64,000 bases of DNA, taken from contig NZ_BOOG01000034.1 of NCBI RefSeq assembly GCF_016863115.1, positions 1 to 64,000 of the forward strand. The letters run 5' to 3'. The notes under the pieces are model-generated. The model was not told the origin of the DNA and did not search any database. It worked only from the letters and a program-made list of their open reading frames with translations. A program made the position numbers and the translations under genes. The DNA comes from Sphaerimonospora thailandensis (GTDB lineage: Bacteria > Actinomycetota > Actinomycetes > Streptosporangiales > Streptosporangiaceae). Shown here one piece after another: positions 9,655-53,464 of the stretch (positions are counted from its first letter, which is position 1; the number at the start of each line of letters is the position of its first letter).

Positions 9655-10440
9655 TCAGGCCTCGATGACGTCGACGCCCGCCCGGGTGAACGCCTTGACG
9701 ATCTCGGGGGTCGCGTCGCGGTCGGTGACCAGGGTGTCGATGGCGTCGCACGAGCAGATCCGGGCGAACGCCCGCGTGCCCAGCTTGGAGGAATCGGTCA
9801 CGACGATGACGTGCCGTGCCTGGGCCGCCATCAGCCGGTTGATGCCGGCCTCGCCCTCGTGGTGGGCGAACGCCCCGCGTTCCGGGTCGAGGGCGTCCAC
9901 GCCGAGGATCGCGTAGTCGAGCGTGATCCCCTGCAGCACGCCGTCGGCCAGCGAGCCGATCAGCTCGTAGGAGGCCGGCAGCGCGACCCCTCCGGTGACC
10001 ACCAGCTTGACGTGTCTGCGTACGACGAGCTCGTTCGCGATGTTCAGCGCGTTCGTCACCACGGTGAGGCCGGGCTCCCCGCTGGGCGGGCCGGGGTCGG
10101 CGCGGCTCGCGAGGCTCCTGGCGACCTCGGTGGTGGTCGTCCCGCCGTTCAGTCCGACGATCGAGCCCGGTGGGACCAGGGCGGCGGCCGCCGCCGCGAT
10201 GCGGTGCTTCTCCGGGGCGTGCCGGGCCGCCTTGTACTGCAGCGGCAGGTCATAGGAGATCGCGTTGACCACCGCGCCGCCGCGTGTGCGCGTCAGCATC
10301 TGCTGTCGGCTCAGATGATCAAGGTCACGCCTGATGGTGGCGGCGGACACGCCCAGCTCGGCCGCGACGGCCTCGACCTCCACCTTGCCGTCTCTCGCGA
10401 GGATCGCGAGCAGCGCGTTCCACCGTTCGTGGCTCGTCAT
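9655..10440 (-). CDS. DeoR-family transcriptional regulator (AgaR-like)
   Basis: A sugar-phosphate-responsive repressor of 261 residues. The N-terminal winged helix has VEAVAAELGVSAATIRRDLDHL, the classic DeoR recognition pattern, followed by RGGAVV. The C-terminal sensor domain has NGGTTTTEVARSL, which binds the phosphate of a sugar phosphate, and VTDSSKLG. GAGAGGGAACG precedes the ATG. It is divergent from the SIS-kinase-aldolase operon, whose promoter carries an inverted repeat, and most likely controls that operon in response to a hexosamine or ketose phosphate. Confidence 0.92.
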   Translation of the reverse strand: MTSHERWNALLAILARDGKVEVEAVAAELGVSAATIRRDLDHLSRQQMLTRTRGGAVVNAISYDLPLQYKAARHAPEKHRIAAAAAALVPPGSIVGLNGGTTTTEVARSLASRADPGPPSGEPGLTVVTNALNIANELVVRRHVKLVVTGGVALPASYELIGSLADGVLQGITLDYAILGVDALDPERGAFAHHEGEAGINRLMAAQARHVIVVTDSSKLGTRAFARICSCDAIDTLVTDRDATPEIVKAFTRAGVDVIEA

Positions 10441-10517
10441 CGGTTCGTTCCCTCTCCCCGGTCGCTGTAAAGCGTAGCCAACACCACGACTTGCACATAT
10501 TTGAGTGCTAGTGGCAT

Positions 10518-10541
10518 CTTATGAGCAGAAATGCGCATAAG
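10518..10541. promoter_or_regulatory. Inverted repeat, probable DeoR operator
   Basis: CTTATGAGC and GCGCATAAG are 9-nt arms matching at 8 of 9 positions, separated by 6 nt. The repeat overlaps the end of the promoter region and the AAGGAGG ribosome site (10539-10545) of the SIS gene, so a bound repressor would block initiation. Confidence 0.6.
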
Positions 10542-10551
10542 GAGGCGTCTG

Positions 10552-11430
10552 TTGACACACGTCCTGGAGGAGATCGCCAGCCAGCCCGACTGCTGGCGCA
10601 GGGCACTCGACCTCGGGGCGGGCAGCCCCGAGGGCCTGCCCCTGCCCGGTGAGCGCGTGGCGGTGATCGGCTGCGGCACCTCGCTCTATATGGCCCAGGC
10701 GTACGCCGCGCTGCGTGAGCGTGCGGGCCAGGGCGAGACCGACGCCTGGGCCGCCTCCGAGCTGCCCGCCCGCCGCTATGACCGGATCGTGGCGATCACC
10801 CGCTCCGGGACCACGACCGAGATCCTCGACGTGCTGGGCGCGGTGGACGGCGGGACGCCCACGGCCGCCATCACGGCGGATTCCGCAACCCCCGTCGCCG
10901 GCCTGGCCGGCACGCTGATCACCCTGGACTTCGCCGACGAGCGTTCGGTGGTGCAGACCCGCTTCGCGACGAGCTCCCTGGCCCTGCTCCGCGCCCACCT
11001 CGGCGAGGCCCCCGCCGACCTGCCCGAGCAGGCCGAGCGTGCGCTGGCGGCCGACCTGCCGGAGAGAGCCGTCTCCCGCCGCCAGTTCACCTTCCTCGGC
11101 AGCGGCTGGAGCAACGGCGTCGCCGCCGAGGCCGCGCTCAAGCTACGCGAGGCCGCGCTGGCCTGGTCGGAGTCCTACCCCGCCATGGAGTATCGCCACG
11201 GGCCGATCAGCATCGCCGACGAGGGCAGCCTGGTCTGGTTCTTCGGCGGGGCGGACGGGCTGCTCGACCAGGTGGTCCGTACCGGAGCCGCGACCACCGT
11301 GGCCGCCCTCGACCCGCTCGCCGACCTGGTACGGGCCCAGCGCCTCGCCGTGGAGCTGGCCCGCTCGCGCGGTCTCGACCCCGACAGCCCGCGCAACCTC
11401 ACCCGTTCCGTGATCCTCGATCAGCCGTGA
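10552..11430 (+). CDS. SIS-domain sugar isomerase/deaminase, AgaS/GlmS-like
   Basis: Two tandem sugar-isomerase domains bind a phosphosugar; relatives deaminate galactosamine-6-P or isomerise glucosamine-6-P. Domain 1 has GCGTSLYMAQAYAALRE and the phosphate-binding TRSGTTTEILDVL. Domain 2 has the GlmS-like GSGWSNGVAAEAALKLRE and YPAMEYRHGPIS. The start is TTG at 10552: AAGGAGG lies six bases upstream, while the earlier ATG at 10531 sits inside the operator. About 292 residues. With the next two genes it forms an aga-like pathway (deaminase/isomerase, tagatose-6-P kinase, tagatose bisphosphate aldolase). Confidence 0.85.
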   Translation: MTHVLEEIASQPDCWRRALDLGAGSPEGLPLPGERVAVIGCGTSLYMAQAYAALRERAGQGETDAWAASELPARRYDRIVAITRSGTTTEILDVLGAVDGGTPTAAITADSATPVAGLAGTLITLDFADERSVVQTRFATSSLALLRAHLGEAPADLPEQAERALAADLPERAVSRRQFTFLGSGWSNGVAAEAALKLREAALAWSESYPAMEYRHGPISIADEGSLVWFFGGADGLLDQVVRTGAATTVAALDPLADLVRAQRLAVELARSRGLDPDSPRNLTRSVILDQP

Positions 11431-12374
11431 TCCTCACGGTCACCCTCAACGCCGCGCTGGACGTGACCTACGAGGTGGCGGAGCTGGTGCCGGGCGGCAC
11501 GCACCGCGCGAGCGCCGTACACGAGCGGGCCGGCGGGAAGGGCGTGAACGTCGCCCGCGTGCTCACCGCGCTCGGCCGTGACCGGGTCCTGGCCACCGGC
11601 CTCGCCGGCGGCCCGGCCGGAGCCGAGATCACCCGGGAGCTCGCCGCGGCCGGCATCCCGGCCCGGTTCGCCCCGATCGCGGGCGACTCCCGGCGGACCG
11701 TCACGATCGTCGCGTCCGGCGACGCCACGGTGTTCAACGAGCCCGGACCGGTCGTCACGGACGGGGAGTGGCACGGGTTCCGCGAGCGCTTCCGCGCGCT
11801 GTGCGGTGAGGCAGAGGTGGCCGTGCTGTCGGGCAGCCTGCCGCCCGGCGTGCCCCGGGACGCGTACGCCCAGCTCACGACCGACGCCCGCGCGCGCGGC
11901 GTCCGCGTTTTGCTCGACGCGGACGGCGAGGCGCTGCGGCTCGGGCTGGCCGCCCGGCCCGACGTCGCCAAGCCGAACGCGGCCGAGCTGGCCCGTGTCG
12001 CCGGCCCCGGCCCGGTGGCCGAGGCCGCGCGGTCGCTCCTCGCGAACGGGCCCGGCGCCGTGGTGGTCTCGCGCGGAGCCGACGGCCTGCTGGCCGTCAC
12101 CTCCGCGGGGACCTGGTCGGTACGGCCGCCCCGGCCGCTGTCGGGCAATCCCACCGGCGCCGGGGACGCCGTGGCCGCCGCGCTGGCCCGGGCCCTGCGC
12201 GGCACCGCTCCGCTCGACCGTGCCGCCCCGGTCGATTGGCCGGCCGTGCTCGCCGACGCCGCGGCCCTGTCGGCCGCCGCCGTGCTCGCCCCCGTCGCCG
12301 GGGACGTCGACCTCGCCGCCTACCGCACGTTCCTCCAGGAGATCTCATGCCACTCGCCACGACAGCCTCGATAG
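11427..12374 (+). CDS. 1-phosphofructokinase / tagatose-6-phosphate kinase (PfkB)
   Basis: A PfkB kinase of the LacC/FruK group that adds the second phosphate to a ketohexose phosphate. It begins VTLNAALDVTYEV, a hallmark of this subgroup, with GGKGVNVARVL as the substrate loop, VLSGSLPPGV in the middle and NPTGAGDAVAAAL as the catalytic/anion-hole motif near the C-terminus. 315 residues. The GTG start overlaps the SIS stop (GTGA), so translation is coupled. Tagatose-6-P is favoured over fructose-1-P because of the AgaS-like and aldolase neighbours. Confidence 0.88.
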   Translation: MILTVTLNAALDVTYEVAELVPGGTHRASAVHERAGGKGVNVARVLTALGRDRVLATGLAGGPAGAEITRELAAAGIPARFAPIAGDSRRTVTIVASGDATVFNEPGPVVTDGEWHGFRERFRALCGEAEVAVLSGSLPPGVPRDAYAQLTTDARARGVRVLLDADGEALRLGLAARPDVAKPNAAELARVAGPGPVAEAARSLLANGPGAVVVSRGADGLLAVTSAGTWSVRPPRPLSGNPTGAGDAVAAALARALRGTAPLDRAAPVDWPAVLADAAALSAAAVLAPVAGDVDLAAYRTFLQEISCHSPRQPR

Positions 12375-13192
12375 TCGCCGCCGCCCCCGCCGGGGTGTGC
12401 GCCTTCAACATCATCACCCTGGAGCACGCCGAGGCCGTCGCGCTGGCCGCCGAGCGGACCGGCACCCCGGTGATCCTGCAGGTCAGCGAGAACGCCGTAC
12501 GGTTCCACCTCGGCAGACTGCGGCCGATCGCCGATGCCGCACGCGCCGTCGCCGCCGCGGCCTCGGTGCCCGTCGCGCTCCATCTCGACCACGTCACCGA
12601 CGACGGGCTGCTGCATGAGGCGGCCGACGCCGGGTTCAGCTCGGTCATGTACGACGCGTCGCGGGAGCCGTACGAGATGAACGTGGCCCGGACCCGGGCC
12701 GCGGCGGACTGGGCGCACGGATGCGGGCTGTGGCTGGAGGCCGAGCTCGGCGAGGTCGGCGGCAAGGACGGCGCGCACGCGCCGGGGGTACGGACCGACC
12801 CGGGCGAGGCGGCCGCCTTCGTCGCCGCGACCGGGGTCGACGCCCTCGCGGTCGCCGTGGGCAGCTCCCACGCCATGACCACCCGGGAGGCGAGGCTGGA
12901 CCACGACCTGATCGCGGCGCTGCGCGAGGCGCTCGCGGTGCCGCTGGTGCTGCACGGCTCCTCCGGCGTACCCGACGACGAGCTGCGCCGCGCCGTCGCG
13001 GCGGGCATGAAGAAGATCAATATCGGTACCGCGCTGAACATCGCGTTCACCGCGGCGATCGAGGGGTCCGCTTACAGGGGCGCGGATCCCCGCCCCCGCC
13101 TCACCGCCGCCCGGGACCGCATGGCCGAAGCGGCCGCCCACCTCCTCGCCACCGTCTCCGGCGTCGCCCACGAGTGTCGTACTGCTTCATGA
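12347..13192 (+). CDS. Class II ketose-bisphosphate aldolase (tagatose/fructose)
   Basis: A zinc-dependent aldolase, 281 residues, that splits tagatose- or fructose-1,6-bisphosphate into two triose phosphates. Motifs: HLDHVTDD (catalytic Asp and a zinc His), VAVGSSHAM (zinc His) and LVLHGSSGV (zinc His and phosphate loop), then MKKINIGTALN. The ATG is preceded by GGAG six bases upstream and overlaps the kinase gene by 28 nt. It ends the operon. GatY/KbaY-type tagatose aldolases look the same at this level, so sugar specificity is inferred from context only. Confidence 0.9.
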   Translation: MPLATTASIVAAAPAGVCAFNIITLEHAEAVALAAERTGTPVILQVSENAVRFHLGRLRPIADAARAVAAAASVPVALHLDHVTDDGLLHEAADAGFSSVMYDASREPYEMNVARTRAAADWAHGCGLWLEAELGEVGGKDGAHAPGVRTDPGEAAAFVAATGVDALAVAVGSSHAMTTREARLDHDLIAALREALAVPLVLHGSSGVPDDELRRAVAAGMKKINIGTALNIAFTAAIEGSAYRGADPRPRLTAARDRMAEAAAHLLATVSGVAHECRTAS

Positions 13193-13232
13193 GGTGGGTT
13201 CACGTGGGCCGCCCTTGTGCCGGCGACGAGGG

Positions 13233-13874
13233 TCAGCTCATGGATCGGCCGGCCGATTTGAGTCCGGTTTCCATATCGGCTATGAAGTGCTGCCACGAGG
13301 AGACGTCCGTGATGGGGCCGGATGGGTCGATCCGTTCGAGAAGCAGTCGCCGATGCTGTGAGAAGCGTTGATTGAACTTTTCGAGCTTCCGTCCGGACAG
13401 GCCAGACGCGAGGGCCAGCTTCTCCTTCAGGACGGTCTTGGGATCAGGGACAGACTCGACCTTATTCGGCGAGGGGAGATTGAGCCGCATCTTGCCGTTC
13501 GGGTTCCCCGCGATGGTTCTCAGCTCTGCCTCGTCCATCAACAACCAGGCCTCGGTCATGCGCACAGGCACGATGGCCGCGTGGGCTGTTCCGGGAGCGT
13601 GTGTCTGGATCGCGGTCGCGATCTCTGTCAGGCGCACCTGCCGGCCATCGCGATCGGCGTCACGATGAACGGCGATGAGTTCGTACTCGCCATCGATATC
13701 GAGGACCGCGCGAAGCTTGTCGCTCACCGCACGACCAGGAGGTTTGGGAAGGCGGCTGAGGTCGGGATCGGTGACTGCGATGTCGATGCCGAGCCTTGCG
13801 GCGATGACTTCGATCTGCGGGATGATCCCGCTGTCGCTTGTTCCCTCCCCCAAGAAGAGCACGCGAACCGTCAC
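13233..13874 (-). CDS. TOPRIM-like protein (DUF4276/RloB type), partner of the ATPase
   Basis: A 213-residue protein with the two acidic motifs of TOPRIM-fold nucleases: VLFLGEGTSD near residues 5-14 (Glu10) and IAVHRDADRDG with Asp72-x-Asp74. The rest is basic and helical, ending SSWQHFIADMETGL. The GTG start at 13874 overlaps the stop of the ATPase gene (GTGA), so the two are translated together. Pairs of an SMC-like ATPase with a TOPRIM or DUF4276 protein occur in phage-defence loci of the OLD/PARIS/RloAB kind; here the role is inferred. Longer readings to 13973 lie inside the ATPase gene and were rejected. Confidence 0.75.
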   Translation of the reverse strand: MTVRVLFLGEGTSDSGIIPQIEVIAARLGIDIAVTDPDLSRLPKPPGRAVSDKLRAVLDIDGEYELIAVHRDADRDGRQVRLTEIATAIQTHAPGTAHAAIVPVRMTEAWLLMDEAELRTIAGNPNGKMRLNLPSPNKVESVPDPKTVLKEKLALASGLSGRKLEKFNQRFSQHRRLLLERIDPSGPITDVSSWQHFIADMETGLKSAGRSMS

Positions 13875-15280
13875 GCGATCTCCAAACGCAGATTGGCGCC
13901 GGGAGGCGTCGTCAGGTAGGGAAGGATGTCCGCCTTGGTCACGGGCACGGTTTCGCCCAGACGTCCACGCCATGAACCCGCCAGGGGACGAAGCCGCAGG
14001 GCGTGCGCCATGCGGCTGTCCGGCATCTGTTTGATCGTGGAGTCGGCGAACAGCAGATCGTCGGGCCGGACCAACTGGACGATCGCCGGAGAATGCGTGT
14101 TGATGATGACCTGGCGGAATGGGTTGTCCTCACCCGGCTCCTCCATGGGATCTACCGCGAGATCCTCGACGAGGCTCACCATGGCTTCCAGATTGCCCGG
14201 GTGAATGCCGTTTTCCGGTTCCTCCATGCAAATGAGGCCGGTCACGGAGGGGTCTTCCAGAAGTACGCACAGGGCGAGGAAGCGCAGCGTGCCCTCGGAC
14301 AGACTTCGGGCCGGCAGGGTGAGGCCGCTCGCTTCCCGAAGCTGGACGGACAGCAACTCTCGGACATCGTCCTGATCTACCCGGAGACTGCGTACCTTGA
14401 GCCCGTCGAGATCGGCAAGACGATTGGCCACCCTGGAGTACACGCGCTCGGGGTCTGAATCAGGGTCACGATGGGCGATGCGGTAGAGAGCGCCCGGAAG
14501 ATGGCGCCCGGTGCTGTCCATCGACCTTGGATCGACATAACGGTCAGATGTCCGCAGTGCCGAGGGTTCCAGGGCGAGGCGACGCCATGACTGCATCTCT
14601 CTGCGGGCGGCCAGGATGGTGGGATCGTCGTTGCTGGTCACTGTACTTACAACGGTGGCAGGCGCCCGAGACGCCGCGGCCGGTTTCGGCTGTCCTCTGC
14701 TTCCCCCATCCTGATGAATTCGGATAATCGGCTGACCGTCCTCGATTGAGGTCGAGATGAACGCGGTGCCGCTCCGGCGGCCCTTCAGAACGGTGTTGCG
14801 GAACTTGGCGGTGCTGTGGGGGAACTTGAGTCGCTGGGGAGCCTCTCGGAGGCTGATGTGCCGGAGATTCTCCTCAAGCAGCGTCAAACGACCGATCTTC
14901 TCTATTCCGGCTGGAGGGACATAGCCCAGCGCGAGCTCATATCGCAGAAATGAGATAGTCGGGATGGCGATCCGGCCGAAGTCGTCTTCCGTTTCGAGAG
15001 GAACGACCATTTCGGCGGCGAAGCGGATTCGATGGCTCTTCGATGCATAGCCGTTCCAGAAGAGGTCGCGCGGGTCGCCGAGACGTTCACCGCGAACACC
15101 TCTCACCTCCTGCGCGGCGTCCAGCAGTGACCTGTCCGCCAGCAGGCTGAGGAACTGGATGGCATCGAACACGTTCGACTTGCCGGTGCCGTTCTCCCCG
15201 GCGATGCATGTGAAAGCGCCGAAGTCTGCTCGGAGGCCGATAAGGTTCTTGAAACCGTCAACCTCTAGCCGTGTCAACAT
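13871..15280 (-). CDS. SMC/OLD-like AAA ATPase, possible defence ATPase
   Basis: A 469-residue ABC/SMC-type ATPase. Walker A is GENGTGKS at residues 28-35. The ABC-like signature is SLSEGTLRFLALCVLLEDP, Walker B is LICMEEPENGIHP, and the switch histidine is in INTHSPAIV. A long insertion with a Pro/Ala-rich stretch (residues about 190-260) separates the two halves, where coiled-coil or toprim-like inserts sit in relatives. The ATG follows GGGGGAGGAAG. It forms a two-gene minus-strand operon with the TOPRIM-like gene, sits alone between an amino-sugar operon and a lipoprotein, and uses visibly fewer G/C-rich codons than its neighbours, which suggests acquisition. Confidence 0.85.
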   Translation of the reverse strand: MLTRLEVDGFKNLIGLRADFGAFTCIAGENGTGKSNVFDAIQFLSLLADRSLLDAAQEVRGVRGERLGDPRDLFWNGYASKSHRIRFAAEMVVPLETEDDFGRIAIPTISFLRYELALGYVPPAGIEKIGRLTLLEENLRHISLREAPQRLKFPHSTAKFRNTVLKGRRSGTAFISTSIEDGQPIIRIHQDGGSRGQPKPAAASRAPATVVSTVTSNDDPTILAARREMQSWRRLALEPSALRTSDRYVDPRSMDSTGRHLPGALYRIAHRDPDSDPERVYSRVANRLADLDGLKVRSLRVDQDDVRELLSVQLREASGLTLPARSLSEGTLRFLALCVLLEDPSVTGLICMEEPENGIHPGNLEAMVSLVEDLAVDPMEEPGEDNPFRQVIINTHSPAIVQLVRPDDLLFADSTIKQMPDSRMAHALRLRPLAGSWRGRLGETVPVTKADILPYLTTPPGANLRLEIA

Positions 15281-15376
15281 CGCTTCCTCCCCCGACCAGC
15301 ATCGCATACCCGATCGGCCGCAACGGTCGATCTTCACCCTGTCATGCGGCCCAGATGGCGAGTGCATCGCCGCGTG

Positions 15377-51611: not shown

Positions 51612-52115
51612 TCATGTCCTCGCAGGACTGTCGAACGAGATCCAGCTATCAGGCGGCAGCTCCGGATGGCCTGGTACGGCTCGGCGTTCCTCGGTCCAAT
51701 CGTCACCGGCGACCTCGGCGGCGACACGGCGCCAGAAACGCACCGCGGTCACGTTGCGGTCCTGGAATGCGACCTCCCACGGCCCCGGATGCCGGGCGAG
51801 AACCTCCCGGACGGCACGCAGCCCGGTGCCCCTTCTCCGAGCCCCGCGCACCACGAAGAAACTGTTGAGCACGCGGGTCGTCCCGGCCAGGCCGCGGACG
51901 AAAGCGAAGCCGACGGGACGCTCACCGCTGGTCAACAGGTACGGCGCCCAGTCGGCGTCACCGAATGCCAGGTGAAGCCGATCTCTCCGGAACGTTCCGT
52001 TCGAGTTGGGCAGGACGCCGTGGAACTCCGACATGTCGTGACGGAACATCAGCCAAAGACGCTCGATCACCGGGCGATCGGTAGGTTTCGCGAGGCATAC
52101 ACCCACGTCTGACAC
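51612..52115 (-). CDS. GNAT-family N-acetyltransferase
   Basis: 167 residues. The acetyl-CoA fold is seen in FAFVRGL..TRVLNSFFVVRGARRRGTGLRAVREVL (the R-x-x-G-x-G/A pyrophosphate loop) and EVAFQDRNVTAVRFWRRVA. The GTG start follows AAAGGAG at 6 nt. The substrate is unknown. Confidence 0.88.
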   Translation of the reverse strand: MSDVGVCLAKPTDRPVIERLWLMFRHDMSEFHGVLPNSNGTFRRDRLHLAFGDADWAPYLLTSGERPVGFAFVRGLAGTTRVLNSFFVVRGARRRGTGLRAVREVLARHPGPWEVAFQDRNVTAVRFWRRVAAEVAGDDWTEERRAVPGHPELPPDSWISFDSPART

Positions 52116-52234
52116 GTGAATCTCCTTTGCTGCAAGGTGCGGAATTTCGACGCCGCGTGGTCCCGGTCACCGATCCGGAGGGAAGCCTTCTGGGGTTTGC
52201 CCACCATCCTCGGACCTGATCGAATCCAGGCACG

Positions 52235-52276
52235 AAAAAAGCCTCCCCGGCGGAGTGCATCCGCACCGAGAAGGCT
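52235..52276 (-). terminator. Orphan intrinsic terminator on the minus strand
   Basis: Minus-strand AGCCTTCTCGGTGCGGA... folds back on TCCGCCGGGGAGGCT and ends in six T. No minus-strand gene ends here: the nearest upstream coding sequence is on the other strand. The 370-base gap between the GNAT start and the antitoxin gene also has a minus-strand TTGACA at 52416-52421, so a short untranslated transcript is possible. I see no gene in the gap. Confidence 0.75.
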
Positions 52277-52485
52277 CAGAACCTGGTGAGCATCATATCA
52301 GGCTGGGTGCCGGGAAGATCCCGATGGCAGGAGTGTCGCCCCGAGATGTCGCTCGCGCCCGCGGAGCCTTGAGGCGGGGACTGTCTGCGAGGCCGGTACG
52401 AACCGGAATACGATCTGTCAAGACGGGGTTCGTGGCGTCTGAAAACAGATGCCCGGCGACACCTTGGACAGAGTAGGAGGCGAGC

Positions 52486-52773
52486 GTGTCCGTATGGTCG
52501 GTGCAGCAGGCCGAGCGACGCTTCAGTGCGTTGCTGGAACGTGCTCGCGCTGAGGGACCGCAGATCATCACCCAGCACGACCGGGAGGTCGCCGTGGTGG
52601 TCGACATCGCGGAGTATCGCCGTCTGAAGCCGGGACACCTCGATTTCAAGGAGTTCCTATGTTCCGGTCCTGACTTGAGTGAGTTGGACATCCGACGATC
52701 GCGTGAGCGTGCCCGGCTCGTCGAGCCCGATGCCGAGGCGGGTATGGACGAGAAGGCCATTGATGTGTCATGA
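52486..52773 (+). CDS. Phd/YefM-type antitoxin (orphan)
   Basis: 95 residues starting VSVWSVQQAERRFSALLERARAEGPQIITQHDREVAVVVDIAEYRRLKP, the complete Phd/YefM fold that binds DNA at the N-terminus. The C-terminal tail (RRSRERARLVEPDAEAGMDEKA) would neutralise a toxin. TAGGAGG lies before the GTG. A VapC/PIN toxin usually starts in the ATGA overlap; here ATGAGCGATAAGCCCGAGCG at 52770 begins in that way but then runs into ATPase sequence, so the toxin is lost. Confidence 0.85.
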   Translation: MSVWSVQQAERRFSALLERARAEGPQIITQHDREVAVVVDIAEYRRLKPGHLDFKEFLCSGPDLSELDIRRSRERARLVEPDAEAGMDEKAIDVS

Positions 52774-52792
52774 GCGATAAGCCCGAGCGCCA

Positions 52793-53464
52793 CGGTTCTA
52801 TGATCTGGATCCCTCGGTGCTGCGCGCGATTGATCAGGATCCACGTCCAAAGGACGCTCTCGGGCCCGCGGGGGAGTATCTAGGGCATGTGCTGGGCGCG
52901 CTGCAGAACGAGTACCCGATGGTGAAGGAGACCTTGGACTCCGCGCTGGCTGCGCTCATCGAGAACGCCGTCGGGATCGACCGGAAGCTGGAGGGGCGCT
53001 ACTCCACCGTTCAAGGGCGCTTCATCACTGCCGGAGAACGATTCCTCGACCCCGTGATCACGGTCTTCGAACGTGAATCCCTGTCCGAGGGGACCTTGCG
53101 GGCGGCGGGTGTCCTCGCCGCGCTTCTCCAACCCAGAGCGCTCTCCGGAGAGATCCCGCTGGTCGCCGTCGAGGAGCCGGAGAAAGCGCTCTATCCGTCT
53201 ACGCTGGGCGGCCTCTACGGGACGTTCATTGCCGCCTCGCACCGAACCCAGGTGATCGTCACCAGCCAGAGCTCGGACCTGCTTGACAACGAGAGCGCGG
53301 ATCTGTCGCACCTTCTCGTGGCGGCCAACTCTGACGGCGTCAGCAGGGTGGGCCCAGTGAACGCGTCAGTTCGTTCGCTCGTGGCCGACAAGGTCATGAC
53401 CATCGCGGAGCTTCACCGCAGCGGACTCATGACACCATCCGCCCACACCGGAGAGAGGCCGTGA
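52793..53464 (+). pseudogene. 3' half of an SMC/OLD-like ATPase gene
   Basis: The frame reads RFYDLDPSVLRAIDQDPRPK, then LGPAGEYLGHVLGALQNEYP, the signature region ERESLSEGTLRAAGVLAAL, Walker B-like PLVAVEEPEKALYPSTLGGLY and the switch TQVIVTSQSSDLL. There is no start codon context and no Walker A: the N-terminal half is absent and the Phd gene sits in its place. A GTG at 52817 could start a shorter product. The stop overlaps a GTG (GTGA), exactly as in the intact ATPase/TOPRIM pair at 13871-13874. Confidence 0.7.

Follow-up and report, generated by a model that had tools for sequence, protein, structure and literature searches.

OLD-type ABC ATPases recur in defence loci together with TOPRIM or other nucleases, according to the available text of PMC12839542. 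In the PARIS system, AriB is held by AriA until a phage trigger releases it, and the released AriB cuts tRNAs (PMC12409363, available portions). TOPRIM_OLD toxins have also been shown to be neutralised by AAA ATPases (PMC10440598, in part). HEC denotes Hma-embedded candidates, of which several have undergone testing, as excerpts of PMC12111858 and PMC12988326 indicate. The system closest to the locus described here is HEC-01, a candidate defence system already named in PADLOC. Its source is reportedly the Payne et al. 2024 preprint. A report of HEC-01 itself being tested was not found in the literature, and its sole mention in the phage papers found was a listing. Here, we place a gene pair that had looked uncatalogued in this named candidate system and compare it with its described counterparts.

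The gene pair and its site

The pair lies on the minus strand of the window, the stretch of 64,000 nucleotides of Sphaerimonospora thailandensis DNA that was analysed. It comprises the following features:

13170-15375, no strand: insert between two convergent genes, 2,206 bp here versus 14 bp in the same-genus genome G396
13871-15280, minus strand: ATPase reading frame, a predicted HEC-01A-like OLD-family ABC ATPase of 469 residues with ATG at 15280 (PADLOC, Pfam AAA_21, conserved ATPase motifs)
13233-13874, minus strand: small reading frame, HEC-01B-like and DUF4276-related, a TOPRIM-like putative nuclease effector of 213 residues with a GTG start (PADLOC, hhalign, conserved residues)
13871-13874, minus strand: stop/start codon overlap of 4 nt, GTGA, read from the sequence, with an overlap of this length in 13 of the 18 intact pairs

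The initial annotation had located both frames and the GTGA overlap exactly. Plus-strand bases 13871-13874 are tcac, giving GTGA on the coding strand, and this overlap may couple translation of the ATPase gene and the small gene. The frames counted from the first possible start are longer (15367 and 13973); the starts at 15280 and 13874 were taken from the profile of relatives. A search for a sigma-70-like promoter of the pair found none, which says little for an actinobacterium.

The base composition of the pair differs from that of its surroundings, with a GC content of 62% versus about 70%. The codon use is less GC-rich, as first described: GC3 is 0.73 and 0.75 for the two genes, below every one of the 42 window genes used for comparison, all at least 150 codons long (mean 0.92; genes called by a home-made script). 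A second low-GC3 patch lies at 51612-53464 and has the lowest GC3 in the window after the pair; its genes at 51612-52115 and 52817-53464 have GC3 values of 0.77 and 0.80.

In G396 the aldolase gene and the lipoprotein-like gene are convergent and the aligned flanks are 14 bp apart. The flanks of the insert share 90% identity with those of G396 over 270 bp, and 84% over 961 bp. G396 offers a clean empty site for a HEC-01 pair in a same-genus genome. Because the GC of the pair is low, a gain in the window lineage is favoured over a loss in G396, the one comparison genome. No repeat frames the insert at both ends among the repeats listed (20 of 21 direct-repeat families and 19 inverted pairs), and no tRNA gene was found within the window. 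By Pfam, one flank encodes a DeoR regulator, a SIS protein, a PfkB kinase and a class II aldolase; the other encodes a protein without a Pfam match, followed by a luciferase-like monooxygenase. The location between metabolic genes given in the initial annotation thus agrees with the Pfam assignments. The label lipoprotein is a reading of the sequence, as Pfam gives no family for that protein.

Family of the ATPase and comparison with known systems

The ATPase contains a Walker A motif GENGTGKSN (residues 28-36), a signature-like LSEGT (327-331), a Walker B motif MEEPENGIHP (352-361) and a switch His396. All of these elements had been recognised earlier, and their core residues (G28, N30, G33, K34, S35, S328, G330, T331, E353, E354, P355, E356 and H396) are invariant over 18 intact pairs. 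The protein matches PADLOC HEC-01A (PDLC04184) at 2.7e-99 and 331 bits over residues 1-440, and Pfam AAA_21 at 2.1e-25. The next named non-HEC system in PADLOC is AriA, with 89 bits. The NCBIfam MAD3 model covers residues 1-415 at 136 bits against a curated cut-off of 420 bits. The N terminus resembles the SMC_N and RecF families through weak matches. These weak matches would suit a general defence against plasmids or other foreign DNA, in which the ATPase would sense DNA structure in the style of SMC or OLD proteins and the partner would cut the invading DNA, as OLD-family nucleases are described to do (PMC7049728, in part). Such a role is improbable, since no coiled-coil arm was noticed by eye in the 469 residues and the best named defence families for the ATPase are HEC-01 and AriA.

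The small protein matches HEC-01B (PDLC04210) at 2.7e-21 and 74 bits over residues 44-207, and all seven PADLOC families listed for it are HEC-01B. Judged by E values and bits against PADLOC-DB 2.0.0, rather than by the score thresholds of PADLOC itself, the profile matches make the pair a HEC-01 type of a divergent branch. The earlier statement that no named system matches is therefore superseded, as the pair falls in PADLOC HEC-01 (A at 2.7e-99, B at 2.7e-21). It has both genes, the gene order and the best profile matches in common with HEC-01, and the genes are adjacent with a 4-nt overlap. Its divergence is seen in the HEC-01B score of 74 bits (residues 44-207); other pairs in this genome reach 264 and 234 bits.

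Other systems share part of this arrangement. Like PARIS (AriA/AriB), the locus has a separate OLD-type ABC ATPase and a small TOPRIM-type partner, and its ATPase resembles AriA (89 bits in PADLOC; E 6e-4 in another search). PARIS itself was rejected, as the small protein has no DUF4435 (Pfam) or AriB (PADLOC) match at E up to 1. With OLD and GajA of Gabija the pair shares the OLD-type ATPase and the order of TOPRIM ligands (E-x3-D, D-x-D, E, K), but it consists of two proteins where OLD and GajA are one fusion, and the PADLOC match is weaker. Gabija was rejected because the ATPase and TOPRIM-like genes are separate and no GajB helicase is present, the neighbours being the aldolase and the protein without a Pfam match. 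AbiL (AbiLi/AbiLii) and RloAB also combine an ATPase with a separate TOPRIM-like protein (PMC10440598, available text), whereas the ATPase of the window matches them with 52 bits only and its partner has no RloB or AbiLii match. MADS was rejected on the MAD3 score (136 of 420 bits), and a Pfam scan of six neighbours showed none of the other MADS genes. No relevant literature on MADS was found.

Family and candidate active site of the small protein

The small protein scores 16.6 bits (E 0.0096) against Pfam DUF4276, below the gathering score of 30.2 bits. A profile of 32 rows aligned with six DUF4276 proteins in hhalign gave a probability of 97.6% and an E value of 3.9e-12 over 189 columns. Because of this profile-profile match, and despite the low Pfam score, the small protein is classed by sequence comparison as a divergent DUF4276 relative that is not a Pfam member. 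No literature on DUF4276 was found.

The residues Glu10 and Asp72-x-Asp74, to which the initial annotation had drawn attention, are present, and they are not equally conserved. Nine residues are unchanged across the 32 relatives (D14, H70, D72, P103, E108, W110, E140, P145 and K146), and conservation is 90% or higher at E10, G11, A109, L112, D114 and L149. The second Asp, D74, is variable among these relatives, and E10 is replaced by Asp in two of them. The metal ligands of Ts OLD are E377, D381, D431, D433, S478 and E480, and a charge-stabilising role is assigned to R487 in Ts OLD and K562 in Bp OLD (PMC7049728, available sections). Residues E10, D14, D72, D74, E108 and K146 of the small protein follow the order of the OLD ligands, with identical E-x3-D and D-x-D spacing. 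By analogy, E108 and K146 may correspond in role to E480 and to R487/K562 of OLD. HEC-01 thereby gains a testable candidate active site consisting of E10, D14, D72, D74, E108 and K146.

A merged profile of HEC-01B and DUF4276 aligned with OLD TOPRIM in hhalign at an E value of 3.6e-4 and a score of 31.5 over 66 columns, with the EG and DxD motifs both in register. When the columns of the merged profile were shuffled, 59 of 60 controls scored at most 15.4 versus 31.5 for the real profile. The remaining shuffle (number 46 of the 60) reached 130.6 over 5 columns, an end artefact that was excluded as a match. The HEC-01B profile alone matched OLD TOPRIM weakly, at a probability of 5-7%. No chain of a TOPRIM enzyme in the PDB was matched with either the single protein or the 32-row profile as query. 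AlphaFold models of both proteins, built with one aligned relative (L006; two rows), had pLDDT values of 46 (mean, small protein) and 31. The small protein probably has a TOPRIM fold; the assignment stops at probable because the motifs and a moderate profile match support it and the AlphaFold models are unusable at these pLDDT values (46 and 31). The TOPRIM-like arrangement proposed earlier is supported by the motifs and the merged profile. Among the four families that had been put forward for comparison, DUF4276 proved to be related and OLD TOPRIM was reached through the merged profile; AriB and RloB gave no match.

Co-inheritance of the two genes

The pair was compared over 23 loci of a close group, namely the window, L006 (Umezawaea endophytica; 77% identity for the ATPase and 69% for the small protein), twenty stretches of other genomes and L082 (a plasmid of the cyanobacterium Kovacikia minuta). 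The close hits G701 and G638 and all distant-type hits fall outside this set. Of the 23 loci, 18 have the two genes intact, side by side and in unchanged order, and the pairing is therefore beyond chance. The 4-nt overlap is seen in 13 of the 18, and the gaps of the other pairs range from -1 to 11; in a few pairs the start codon was picked by the analyst from the overlap. The two genes are co-inherited: their pairwise identities over the 18 pairs correlate with an r of 0.93, a value that none of 5000 permutations reached. On average, the ATPases are 57% identical and the partners 42%. At two decimals, GC is below that of the own stretch for 18 of 18 ATPase genes and 17 of 18 partner genes. The NG86 comparison of the window pair with L066 gave dN values of 0.12 and 0.26 at a dS of about 2, which is saturated, and dS against L006 was undefined; constraint on the pair is only hinted at by these sequences.

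The remaining five loci are broken, reduced to remnants or lie at a contig end. In L072 (G878; 9753-12898) the small gene is split by an insertion element that carries a transposase-like frame and the ATPase is intact, and in L074 a stop codon lies within the small gene, again with the ATPase intact. Loss of the small gene alone in two loci would fit a toxin-antitoxin pair with the ATPase as antitoxin and the TOPRIM-like protein as toxin, whose main role would be maintenance or stress response rather than phage sensing. Couples of an AAA ATPase and a TOPRIM_OLD toxin have been validated as such pairs; however, the authors themselves suspect phage defence (PMC10440598, available text). The reverse loss also occurs, as L065 has an ATPase remnant next to an intact partner gene, and HEC-01 relatives are found in defence loci. 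A toxin-antitoxin function therefore appears unlikely, though it is the strongest of the alternatives. L081 has only a remnant of the small gene, and L070 lies at a contig end. A gene for an SbcC/SMC-like ATPase is located near L072.

Occurrence and neighbourhoods

The occurrence of the pair is scattered, and it is nearly absent from collections of mobile elements. Strong matches to the small-protein profile (E<1e-50) are present in 13 of 200 genomes of the same family and 7 of 394 of the same class; at E 1e-6, with distant types included, 44 of the 200 and 14 of the 394 have a match. Across the phylum, 6 of 396 genomes contain PDLC04210, a count that includes the genome of the window. Small-protein matches were found in 1 of 72,556 plasmid records, and no small-protein relatives were found in viral contigs. 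A scan of the viral contigs with the ATPase gave one weak match. Among 50,697 phage records the ATPase matches 2; one of these is an unverified contig with a distant pair.

No neighbour family is present in more than three of the 23 stretches (the gene-calling script overlooked some of the AT-richer pairs). Most of the 81 neighbour genes around 20 loci are ordinary and a few match defence families. By its family matches, the G672 relative (L085, 187-13389) sits in a clear defence island, and few other loci are defence-like. The genes of this one-strand island encode GmrSD, a protein kinase, an SNF2 helicase, a type IIG restriction-methylase and HEC-01A/B. The helicase matches DrmD (6e-80) and HmaA (1.4e-47), and the restriction-methylase gene and the ATPase gene share one base, the last of the former and the first of the latter. 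In G053 the pair adjoins a DpdF homologue (8.3e-142). The defence islands that had been suggested as a place to look thus yielded one clear case, together with the G053 pair, and homologous pairs are not confined to conserved housekeeping contexts. Five neighbour genes match mad3 weakly, one of them SbcC/SMC-like.

The SMC/RecF-like N terminus of the ATPase could also point to a role in DNA repair or housekeeping. The scattered occurrence, the empty site in the same genus, the lack of a widely recurrent neighbour and the broken copies make such a role very improbable.

Predicted function

By comparative evidence, the pair is a real, intact and probably functional member of HEC-01. It is likely to be a mobile PARIS-like abortive-infection module of sensor and nuclease, of the HEC-01 anti-phage kind. 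This sensor-effector logic is proposed because AriA/AriB, the pairs of ATPase and TOPRIM_OLD, and the OLD-ABC defence loci share it. The OLD/AriA-like ABC ATPase would act as the sensor and hold its partner inactive. A phage trigger would change the state of the ATPase, and the partner would be freed or activated. The activated DUF4276-related partner, through a TOPRIM-like two-metal nuclease site (E10, D14, D72 with D74, E108 and K146), would cleave host nucleic acid and the infection would be aborted. The nuclease activity, its inhibition by the ATPase and the phage trigger are all inferred. For the target, we would guess tRNA, by analogy with the free-standing TOPRIM protein AriB, and DNA next. 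The defence role first proposed for the locus gains from the HEC-01 matches, the relative in a defence island, the empty site and the scattered occurrence; what did not survive is the view that the pair matches no named system.

Further HEC-01 pairs in the same genome

Besides the pair described above, the assembly of the window contains five others with HEC-01A and HEC-01B matches, six in all. Two are in tandem on contig C24, and one each is on C69, C36 and C19. The genome has 4 Pfam DUF4276 matches, second only to a genome with 5 among the 200 of the family, of which 49 have any such match. Six pairs in one genome lend themselves to the question of whether such sensors split phage triggers. 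A speculative and rather improbable possibility is that HEC-01 forms a modular immune repertoire, with six divergent pairs, two of them in tandem, kept in this one genome, whose ATPases would read different phage triggers and whose DUF4276-type partners would share one OLD-derived, unfused nuclease site. Loss of the second Asp in the wider family may hint at an RNA rather than a DNA substrate.

The single pairs (L120, G000:C69; L125, G000:C36; L126, G000:C19) each consist of an ATPase and a DUF4276 protein with HEC-01A and HEC-01B matches. The tandem (L061, G000:C24, 7612-11435) consists of two distant-type HEC-01 pairs in the order A-B-A-B between an amidase gene and gatB (Pfam), and looks as if it had been inserted in a gatAB-like operon.
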